From Coprococcus comes ATCC 27758 (GTDB lineage: Bacteria > Bacillota > Clostridia > Lachnospirales > Lachnospiraceae): DNA of 64,000 nt. The DNA is taken from assembly GCF_025149785.1 (NCBI RefSeq), contig NZ_CP102277.1, positions 3,224,001 through 3,288,000 of the forward strand. The letters run 5' to 3'. The notes below the pieces were generated by a model, which was not told the origin of the DNA, searched no databases, and saw nothing but the letters and a program-made list of their open reading frames with translations. Both the position numbers and the translations under genes were made by a program. Shown piece by piece: positions 17,410-63,243 of the stretch (position 1 is the stretch's first letter; each line of letters starts with the position of its first letter).

Positions 17410-17532
17410 TTGATAGAGCGATAGCTCGCACAGCGAATGAACCGCCAGGTTCACGAGCTGTGGTGCACTGCTCCTCCCCTAAATCATTCGACCAACAAAC
17501 TTTCTTATCTAAAACACACTACTCCCCAAGGG

Positions 17533-17596
17533 GAACAGCGCCAGCGCCTTCCCCGCCCCTGCACCATCCTCCCAAGCGAACAGCGCCAGCGCCTTC
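17533..17596 (+). repeat. GC-rich 19-bp direct repeat upstream of the peptide locus
   Basis: GAACAGCGCCAGCGCCTTC occurs at 17533-17551 and 17578-17596 in a cytosine-rich tract unlike its AT-rich surroundings. The 17410-17630 region also holds small palindromes such as TGAACC-GCC-AGGTTCA. No gene is supported here. Confidence 0.6.
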
Positions 17597-17631
17597 GCGC
17601 CCCTCCGCGCCAAAATCTCCCTTTTACACAA

Positions 17632-17660
17632 TTGCAACCTCCCCCACATACTGCTATACT
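17632..17660 (+). promoter_or_regulatory. Promoter of the candidate toxin mRNA
   Basis: TTGCAA, 17-nt spacer, TATACT; transcription would begin near 17667, just before the GGGTGCTACC segment that can pair with the mRNA 3' end. Confidence 0.7.
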
Positions 17661-17780
17661 CAACTCACGGGTGCTACCATAACGGTAGGCGGTTAGTCCT
17701 TCACCAGAGGGACTGTGGACTTCCCCCTCTGATTACATAGAAACCTGAAACGGAATCCACTGGAAAGGAGGGCTAAGCTA

Positions 17781-17879
17781 ATGAGTATTTTGGATTTCAT
17801 TGCAGTTGCAAGCTTTGGCATCAGCTGCTTTTGTGCCGGATACACATTCGGCAAAGATTATAATAAGTCACAAAAATAG
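17781..17879 (+). CDS. Candidate type I toxin: 32-aa hydrophobic peptide
   Basis: Translation: MSILDFIAVASFGISCFCAG followed by YTFGKDYNKSQK. One membrane helix (about residues 3-22) then a short charged tail, the build of small membrane toxins. AGGAGGG lies 8 nt before the ATG. A leader of about 114 nt starts with GGGTGCTACC..GGCGGTTAG (17669-17696), which is complementary to the transcript's own 3' end (17936-17958), and contains TTAGTCCTT, partly complementary to the ribosome site. A convergent antisense RNA covers the 3' part. Toxicity is inferred from layout only; I cannot name a known family. Alternatively it may be a regulatory or structural micropeptide. Confidence 0.65.
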   Translation: MSILDFIAVASFGISCFCAGYTFGKDYNKSQK

Positions 17880-17965
17880 CCGCCCCTGTCTGCAAACTAG
17901 GCGACTATCTTTGATATTCTAAATAGTTAAGCGGGCTAACCGTCTATCGGTATCACCCTTTTTCT
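17872..17965 (-). ncRNA. Candidate antisense antitoxin RNA
   Basis: Predicted about 93-nt RNA on the minus strand, starting roughly 7 nt after the -10 box at 17972-17977 and ending at the hairpin ATAGTCGCC..GGCGGCTAT followed by TTTTTG (about 17872-17910). It overlaps the toxin stop codon and whole 3' untranslated region, and its 5' end GGTGATACCGATAGACGGTTAG resembles the toxin leader, so both compete for the same mRNA 3' segment. Existence is inferred from promoter plus terminator. Confidence 0.55.
17933..17963 (+). terminator. Terminator of the candidate toxin mRNA
   Basis: GGG.TAACCG-TCTAT-CGGTATCACCC stem with an internal loop, followed by TTTTTC. The same bases are the ones complementary to the mRNA 5' end. 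Confidence 0.6.
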
Positions 17966-17971
17966 ATATTC

Positions 17972-18000
17972 ATACTATCACTCAATCATAAATATGTCAA
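17972..18000 (-). promoter_or_regulatory. Promoter of the candidate antisense RNA
   Basis: Minus strand TTGACA (perfect), 17-nt spacer, TAGTAT. Confidence 0.62.
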
Positions 18001-18012
18001 AATTTTTCCACT

Positions 18013-18957
18013 CTACACCAACCCAAACGACCTCAACACATCCAGCCACATCGTAAGCGTAAACGCACTCAACAACGTCGTCATCATAATCACCCCGGAA
18101 CTAAGCGTCCCCTCATGTCCCATATTCCTTGCCATAACAAAACAGCTGACCGTCGTAGCAGATCCAAGCATCACCAGAATCGCAATCATCTCTTCATTCC
18201 TAAATCCAAGAAGTGCCGCCATCGGCAAAAAAACCACACAAAATCCAACCAGCTTCATAAACACAGCAACAAGTGTAGGCTTCATCTTCGATGTTGCCTT
18301 CTTCATCTCAAAGGTTGCACCCATCGACATCAGTCCCATCGGCGTCGCTGTCGCACCGATACTTGATACCGTCTTATGTAAAATCGATGGCATCGGAAGC
18401 TTAAGTGCAGACCAGACAAATCCCGCCACAATTCCAATAATGATCGGATTCGTTGCAATCCCCTTCAGTGTTTTCTTTACCAGCGCCTTATCAAAAGAAT
18501 TATTCCCCGGTTTAAACACTGAAAGTACCACAACCGCCATAATATTATAAAGCGGCACACTGCCGATGATCATAAGCGGTGCCATTCCCGCAGTTCCGTA
18601 AATATTCTGGATAAAAGCAATTCCAAGAAGCGCCGCACTGCTCCGGTAAGTCGCCTGTATAAATTCGCCTTTAACGCTCCGGTCTTTCCACAGCAGTGAA
18701 ATCAAAGTTGATATCGTAATACTGATCGCCGTCACCACAAAACAAAAAAGAATAAACTTAATATCCCATACTTCCGAAAAATCCACAGTCGCCAGCTGTT
18801 CAAACAGCAACACCGGAAGCGGAACCAAAAATACAAACTTGTTCATCTTTGCTGCAAAGACTTCATCCATCCACCCCAGTTTTCTGAATAACATTCCAAG
18901 TAACATCATTAAAAATATCGGAATCGTTGCATTCAGACTGAAAATTAAATTTTCCAT
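18013..18957 (-). CDS. AEC-family transporter (auxin efflux carrier-like permease)
   Basis: 314 aa integral membrane protein with about ten helices in two five-helix halves, as in AEC/bile-acid-sodium-symporter-fold carriers. The N-terminal half has IPIFLMMLLGMLFRKLGW and NKFVFLVPLPVLLF, with the conserved proline-kinked helix; the second half includes ATPMGLMSMGATFE, typical of the family. Bacterial members move dicarboxylates such as malate or malonate; the substrate here is unknown. A single gene, ending 13 bp from the -35 box of the candidate antisense RNA. Ribosome site AGGAACG. Confidence 0.88.
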   Translation of the reverse strand: MENLIFSLNATIPIFLMMLLGMLFRKLGWMDEVFAAKMNKFVFLVPLPVLLFEQLATVDFSEVWDIKFILFCFVVTAISITISTLISLLWKDRSVKGEFIQATYRSSAALLGIAFIQNIYGTAGMAPLMIIGSVPLYNIMAVVVLSVFKPGNNSFDKALVKKTLKGIATNPIIIGIVAGFVWSALKLPMPSILHKTVSSIGATATPMGLMSMGATFEMKKATSKMKPTLVAVFMKLVGFCVVFLPMAALLGFRNEEMIAILVMLGSATTVSCFVMARNMGHEGTLSSGVIMMTTLLSAFTLTMWLDVLRSFGLV

Positions 18958-62709: not shown

Positions 62710-62858
62710 CTGCCCTTCCTAATTATTTAGACTTTTTTATCTTATATAGGTATTGTATCTGACAAAGCATTACGTGAATCATTACCAATAACGAAAAATA
62801 TTAACTTTTTTAAGTTATAACAAGAAATAGTCATGTTTTTGTAATAATATAATGATTT

Positions 62859-62927
62859 GATACCAGGGTCAAAAGGTCAGAAAGCCGATGCAAGCTTGCT
62901 TGCAAGAGGATTTTTGACCTCTTGACC
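62859..62927. repeat. Dispersed palindromic repeat, copy 2
   Basis: Same 69-bp sequence as 19885-19953 with two differences. Here it is followed by about 95 bp, then CTGGTATC (about 63021-63028), the inverse of its own first eight bases GATACCAG, then GGGGTCAAAATACCTTTGAACCCC and CCCCAACATC, so this copy may be a longer version of the element. Confidence 0.85.
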
Positions 62928-63243
62928 AGCCAAAAACATGAGTAAGTAGCCTTTTTTCAAAGAAAAATGAGCGGATTACGAATGTTTTTGAGGATTGCGA
63001 GAGTGCAAAGCACGTAGCAATCTGGTATCAAAGGGGTCAAAATACCTTTGAACCCCAACATCATGATTTGTAGGAGTGCGTAATATTTGTGTCTGACTCT
63101 ACTATATGTATTGGGATATTAGAATAGAAGTAAAAGTGGGGAATAATGTGATGGAAGTGCAAAAAGTATAGATTGAGGGGAGCGCATAGAAAAGGAGTGA
63201 TCTGGTTATAGCGGCGAGGGAGAGGAATTTTCCGGACAAAAAG
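62928..63243. other. Intergenic stretch without a supported gene
   Basis: Holds the extended part of the repeat (to about 63060) and then about 180 bp of purine-rich sequence with no ribosome site or coding pattern on either strand. Confidence 0.55.

Follow-up and report, generated by a model that had tools for sequence, protein, structure and literature searches.

Layout of the locus and its peptide

The locus occupies positions 17632-18000 of the window, by which we mean the whole 64,000-nucleotide stretch of Coprococcus comes DNA that was analysed. The mRNA promoter, TTGCAA-17-TATACT (17632-17660, plus strand), was read from the sequence and is conserved in relatives; its position predicts an mRNA start at about 17667. 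It is followed by a structured leader of about 114 nt (17667-17780, plus strand; model R1), defined by alignments and covariation. On the same strand, the leader contains three elements. The first is the 5' arm of a long-distance 5'-3' pairing (LDI; 17669-17699), which is based on fold and pairing tests, with covariation for a rival helix. The second is the hairpin AGAGGG:CCCTCT (17705-17731), which covaries better than any other leader helix, and the third is the ribosome-binding site GGAGGG (17767-17772), read from the sequence. The 3' half of the 5' arm, GGTTAGTCCTTC, is also an alternative partner of the ribosome site. The gene itself (17781-17879, plus strand) encodes a hydrophobic peptide of 32 aa, MSILDFIAVASFGISCFCAGYTFGKDYNKSQK. 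A hairpin at the stop codon, T1 (17873-17915, assigned to neither strand), has a covarying stem and is supported by folds, while hairpin T2 with its U-tract (17933-17963, plus strand), supported by pairing tests and folds, includes the 3' arm of the LDI (17933-17958, plus strand; pairing tests). On the minus strand, the promoter TTGACA-17-TAGTAT (17972-18000), likewise read from the sequence and conserved in relatives, precedes a predicted antisense RNA of about 93 nt (17873-17965; model R2), which is based on models and conservation and runs from about 17965 down to 17873, covering only the 3' untranslated region and the extreme end of the gene. Both promoters, the leader and the 32-aa ORF had been proposed in a first-pass annotation of this DNA and were all located.

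Judged from one sequence, the promoters are weak evidence (six promoter-like sites in the region against 2.2 +/- 1.3 expected); judged across loci, they are strong. The mRNA promoter scored at least 9/12 in 78/107 loci compared with 49/535 shuffles, and at least 10/12 in 40/107 loci compared with 11/535. For the antisense promoter, these counts were 86/108 loci versus 61/540 shuffles and 71/108 versus 5/540, respectively.

Terminators had been annotated as well; the hairpins T1 and T2 are present, but a simple terminator scan of the region called neither. T1 is more stable than T2 both in the window (-10.9 vs. -5.4) and in the median sense-direction fold over loci (-16.2 vs. -7.5), and a run of at least four T was found at T1 in 73/108 loci and at T2 in 53/108. 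Since T1 folds better and has a T-run more often, many mRNAs may stop short of the LDI partner; the LDI exists only if transcription reads through T1 as far as T2. It is possible that T1, as the 3' end of the antisense RNA, represents a bidirectional terminator. Upstream of the mRNA promoter lie short repeats (AACAGCGCCAGCGCCTTC, 17530-17605), and three similar units occur in the near-identical relative G002. Elsewhere in the window, a Clostridiales-1 RNA (Rfam RF01699, 135.2 bits) was found at 62858-63030.

The window peptide, with a hydropathy of 2.05, gave no match to Pfam up to an E-value of 10 and none to NCBIfam, PADLOC or PHROGs, in agreement with the earlier remark that it was not recognised. 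It is under purifying selection, with a pN/pS of 0.31 against its own clade and of 0.23 pooled over 34 sequences of that clade (uncorrected proportions). Across the family loci described below, peptides are mostly 25-36 aa long, hydrophobic in 139/142 loci and furnished with a basic C-terminal tail in 141/142, as is typical of type I toxins. They comprise 130 distinct peptides, with classes such as MSIVDFIAV..., MLTIEGLIAV..., MSDFEMLSI..., MVTYADLFQ... and MIVLEIIGA.... Because the peptides vary this widely while the RNA parts persist, one peptide seems to be replaceable by another within a constant RNA design. In 129/142 loci, stop codon and antisense 3' end are separated by the same distance; the ORF picker miscalled L132, and in L088 and L114 it continued past the usual stop. 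Profile scans of sister peptides returned only sub-cut-off matches, or unnamed or holin PHROGs. One sister peptide, MVTYDELFQLGLLIVAIIGLVYKLTKK, encoded on the same RNA design, reached 22.1 bits against Hol_Tox (PF16935; cut-off 23.3 bits), unlike the window peptide, which has no profile match, and it also matched a PHROGs holin family (E 6e-5).

Copies, relatives and exceptions

The first-pass annotation left unseen that the locus is multi-copy and widespread. Its own genome carries four copies with leader and antisense element, the further ones at about 2.82, 2.81 and 0.106 Mb, and, at 2.28 Mb, one orphan leader. Next to the copies at 2.82 and 2.81 Mb are ORFs that read as recombinase/integrase and relaxase-like, and the leader of the latter copy contains an insertion. 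Each of the two copies next to mobilizable-element-like genes (L194, L195) also adjoins a near-identical membrane-protein-like ORF. The copy at about 106 kb (L202) is a weaker fourth one (leader 34.4 bits, antisense 60.1 bits), whose peptide belongs by eye to another class (MLTI...). In three genomes, the leaders of L003, L042 and L043 contain a similar insertion of about 50-60 nt with a hairpin of its own.

The window copy is flanked by what we take to be asparagine-synthetase-like and transporter-like genes, and the near-identical relative G002 has the locus at the same place. Six other stretches from the same genus (L337-L342) gave no match to R1 or R2 at E-values up to 1e-4. Five of these six (not L341) contain asnB-like sequence, and in L339, L340 and L342 this sequence is followed by a short spacer without the locus and then by the transporter gene. 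These empty sites point to a lineage-specific gain of the window copy, or to repeated loss.

BLASTN relatives were found in 23/98 genomes. The leader covariance model R1, built from 16 sequences, matched 125/397 genomes of the same family (own included), representing 118/334 genera; about one third of the sampled family genomes thus carry the leader, and the true share is probably higher, since scoring was confined to nine candidates per genome and used strict filters. In a phylum-wide sample, R1 matched 4/299 genomes, three of which belong to the same family, own included. Named carriers of both elements include Blautia luti, [Ruminococcus] torques, Dorea phocaeensis, Eubacterium ramulus and Fusicatenibacter saccharivorans. 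The named-genome scan yielded at least 119 stretches, of which 80 were among the matches listed and 40 of these were scored with the models. An extra pairing set of 60 loci (40 named, 13 viral, six same-genus and one other) had 44/52 leader matches paired with an antisense element; five of the eight unpaired leaders lie at a stretch end, the remaining ones being L205, L327 and L332, and 8/52 antisense matches had no leader match. Among mobile records, one weak phage match and 13 IMG/VR stretches with the leader motif were found; the plasmid records searched gave no match.

The antisense element was found downstream on the opposite strand for 145/157 leader matches, and with its conserved promoter this supports the convergent antisense RNA proposed at first; by conservation, an antisense RNA with its own promoter appears to face the mRNA of the presumed toxin, as in type I systems. 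The 145 matches correspond to 143 distinct loci, 142 with an ORF call (L185 was left out) and 108 once near-identical loci were removed. A search of Lachnospiraceae genomes for conserved promoters and covariation, suggested along with the first annotation, found both across loci.

Loci that keep the peptide and lose the antisense promoter or the end complementarity would have spoken against the original proposal. Mostly this is not the case, given the antisense element in 145/157 leader matches and the predicted end pairing in 107/108 loci. For the 12 leader matches without an antisense match, ten sequences and L005 were read by eye; a second L138 leader match on the opposite strand was taken as an artefact. 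Both L170 and L174, divergent loci of one genome, have by eye an antisense-like element whose altered 5' sequence finds its match in the leader, and the two 5' elements appear to have changed together. L180 is interrupted by an intron-like insertion, and in L043, L072 and L112 the peptide is broken or the 3' end replaced (all by eye). The leader of L005 is an orphan, L106 runs up to the end of its contig, and in L175 the ORF is still open while ribosome site and antisense element are gone. L022 and L172 retain leader and peptide but are interrupted by insertion-sequence-like DNA, with loss of the antisense region. In these two genomes, similar insertion-sequence-like ends (GAAGTGAACCCCTTT...) lie directly 3' of TAACCGCCC, after the stop codon, as if the insertions targeted the T1 hairpin. 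There are 15 antisense matches without a leader match in place, some cut by a stretch end. L027, L030 and L032 have both peptide and antisense element but gave no leader-model match; that they lack a recognisable leader goes against both the rule of the first annotation and our main reading.

The persistence of L022 and L172 without the antisense region also speaks against a toxin, which, if lethal, would not easily allow it. Together with the ordinary chromosomal genes around the window copy, these two loci would suit a small membrane regulator under antisense control that is no toxin. We regard such a role as unlikely in view of the hydrophobic core with its basic tail, the two own-genome copies beside mobilizable-element-like genes, the sister peptide close to Hol_Tox and the existence of decayed copies.

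Pairing of the mRNA ends and its competitors

The predicted mRNA (17667-17963) folds at -100.4 kcal/mol (z -4.82), and 0/200 shuffles were as low. Its ends, 17667-17702 and 17931-17963, pair with -41.0 kcal/mol, compared with -28.5 for the best of 4000 random pairs of equal spacing in the window. The folding check proposed with the first annotation recovered the LDI. An LDI with at least 10 expected pairs was predicted in 107 of the 108 non-redundant loci, and the 5'-3' complementarity claimed for the window is accompanied by locus-specific compensatory change, as in LDIs of the hok/AapA type. Cognate ends average -40.7 kcal/mol and swapped ends -32.0, with -33.6 as the best of 5000 permutations; on average, 10.7% of the 3' ends of other loci pair better than the own one. 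The proportion of LDI cells that are paired is 95.2% (permuted maximum 89.7%), and 137 doubly changed cells are still paired, against a maximum of 60 in 1000 permutations. In 49 disjoint sister pairs, 59 two-sided co-changes were counted where independence would give 19.3 and an off-register control gave a mean of 26.6 and a maximum of 37; the pair was kept in both sisters in 47/59. Mismatches in the LDI are more often G-U than A-C (101:28, ratio 3.61; permuted maximum 1.83), and this excess points to pairing in the sense RNA. From swapped ends, compensatory cells, wobble excess and sister pairs, it appears that selection acts on RNA pairing inside the sense mRNA.

These tests bear on the possibility that control resembles TxpA/RatA or BsrG/SR4, with a 3' duplex and RNase III only, and that the likeness of leader and antisense RNA stems from DNA exchange between inverted copies. 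The 3' overlap is indeed as in the B. subtilis systems, as far as the available part of the source describes them (PMC6562991), and T1 may end most mRNAs ahead of the LDI partner. However, the G-U excess is unexpected under DNA homogenisation of the two copies, which it disfavours, and the swapped-end and sister-pair tests also oppose this explanation; we hold it to be quite improbable.

The alignments used to count covariation had been fitted to models R1 and R2; 100 sources were supplied, 101 aligned and 98 paired, at least eight of the 108 loci being left out and L170 and L174 added. The shuffle controls ignore relatedness; within-genome, wobble and sister-pair tests were added for this reason, all of them tree-free. 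Covariation is strong in the leader hairpin AGAGGG:CCCUCU (z 5.4-26.9) and at the three best pairs of the T1 stem (z 13.7-17.9), and moderate (z up to 4.8) in the helix between the 5' GUCCUUC and the ribosome site, which was already built into model R1. Between leader and antisense columns, the four strongest pairs (z 7.8-10.8) are in-register identities, eight of which reach 5.2; two other column pairs reach 6.3. The earlier observation that the antisense RNA starts nearly like the mRNA leader extends across loci. Since the start of the antisense RNA corresponds, on the sense strand, to the 3' end of the mRNA, this identity means complementarity inside the mRNA. Within the 16 genomes with at least two loci, a leader matched its own antisense RNA better in 45 comparisons, equally in 11 and worse in six, and the match is for this reason locus-specific.

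Other targets were considered as well. Direct action of the antisense RNA on the ribosome site was rejected (cognate -12.40 vs. swapped -12.45; best site there in 17/108 loci), and pairing of its 5' end with the leader is unsupported (-19.74 vs. -19.23). A genome-wide factor reading both 5' ends is disfavoured by the locus-specific match within genomes.

We are fairly confident that the locus is type I toxin-antitoxin-like and works by the switch proposed here, with toxicity and regulation both presumed. An mRNA of about 297 nt would encode a small membrane peptide, the putative toxin, and the convergent antisense RNA of about 93 nt would be complementary to its entire 3' untranslated end. The best-supported step is the LDI, in which the first 30 nt or so of the mRNA would pair with about the last 30. 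Because the antisense RNA starts with nearly the mRNA's own start sequence, the leader in cis and the antisense RNA in trans would compete for one 3' end. Held by the LDI, the mRNA would be stable and closed. Once the antisense RNA paired with the 3' end, the 5' leader would be displaced and would then close the ribosome site, and the duplex would be exposed to RNase III. If the antisense RNA were lost, the peptide could be made.

The ribosome site had been overlooked as a rival partner of the mRNA 5' end in the first-pass annotation. Two alternative partners are predicted for the leader's GGUUAGUCCUUC, the mRNA 3' end and the ribosome site, and it cannot pair completely with the two at once. 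In predicted folds, the leader closes the ribosome site in the T1-ended form (2.7 expected pairs, compared with 0.6 at full length) and is held away from it in the LDI form, and we favour for this reason the direction in which the antisense RNA releases the leader. The opposite, hok-like direction is nearly as likely on these models, because the ribosome site is largely paired even in the LDI form, where its partners are the middle of the leader and the coding region. There, the LDI form would be a dead precursor that is activated by 3' removal until the antisense RNA destroys the mRNA; we give this a serious chance, though somewhat below an even one. The architecture is that of hok and AapA in the accessible portions of PMC6733600 and PMC8167048, and the LDI is conserved. 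The ribosome site is predicted to be poorly accessible in all forms (accessibility 0.26 to T2, 0.17 to T1, and 0.22 and 0.28 in 5'-trimmed forms), which counts against our main reading, and the 0.26 of the LDI form fits a closed precursor. On the other hand, 3' loss should close the site through the leader, the full-length form is predicted to be more accessible than the T1-ended one in 84/108 loci, and L022 and L172 persist although they lost the 3' end. The fold predictions thus lean away from activation by 3' processing.

Relation to known type I systems

Rfam gave no match at the gathering score at the locus (two sub-threshold matches, E 0.67 and 3.6), and no description of it was recognised among the literature matches listed, a search in which subscription papers were mostly outside the scope. 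The sequence comparisons indicate that the locus probably belongs to a new type I toxin-antitoxin family whose defining feature is its RNA and in which an LDI like that of hok and AapA is set in the 3'-overlap layout of Gram-positive systems. Beyond that, we lean towards a new superfamily centred on Lachnospiraceae, a family assignment taken from the named carriers, with several classes of dissimilar peptides, a defining RNA design and an antitoxin that copies the mRNA 5' end. If confirmed, this would bring a hok-type 5'-3' switch into Gram-positive 3'-overlap systems, provide natural compensatory variants for testing end pairing against antisense RNA competition, and offer a function for genes of about 30 codons that are mostly unnamed in the profile libraries searched.

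The available parts of the literature describe Gram-positive type I systems as overlapping at their 3' ends, the B. subtilis toxins as using local stems (PMC6563280; PMC8167048; PMC4147584; PMC6733600; PMC6562991), and LDIs for hok and AapA (PMC6733600; PMC8167048). The logic of hok/sok, AapA/IsoA and TxpA/RatA suggested at first holds for layout, LDI and 3' overlap; Fst/par-type direct repeats are absent. Fst/par of pAD1 is similar in its convergent RNAs, shared bidirectional terminator and repeats at both 5' ends, and in a peptide of about 33 aa that combines a transmembrane part with a charged tail, as far as these are covered in the accessible text of PMC8167048 and PMC4147584. It differs in that, by the same partial accounts, antitoxin and toxin mRNA pair through the direct repeats of par, whereas the window leader nearly repeats the start of the antisense RNA and has its partner in the 3' end of its own mRNA. 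No direct repeats at both 5' ends were found in 17550-18100, where the two RNAs share sense sequence instead, and the window peptide falls into no known Pfam family.

TxpA/RatA and BsrG/SR4 share the 3'-overlapping antisense RNA, and the convergent overlap of TxpA/RatA is found here. In the portions of the sources at hand, SR4 binding at the 3' end lengthens the fold at the ribosome site from 4 to 8 bp (PMC4147584; PMC6562991), and the ribosome sites of these systems are hidden in four or five GC pairs (PMC6562991); the window family, in contrast, has the conserved 5'-3' LDI. With hok/Sok and AapA/IsoA it has in common the LDI and alternative leader hairpins, as outlined in the accessible part of PMC6733600. 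Those systems are described in other phyla, the window peptide has no Pfam relation to them, and the window antisense RNA, unlike theirs, sits at the 3' end and itself contains the LDI partner. Relative to what the available portions of PMC6563280, PMC8167048, PMC4147584, PMC6733600 and PMC6562991 describe, the LDI switch would be new for Gram-positive toxins.
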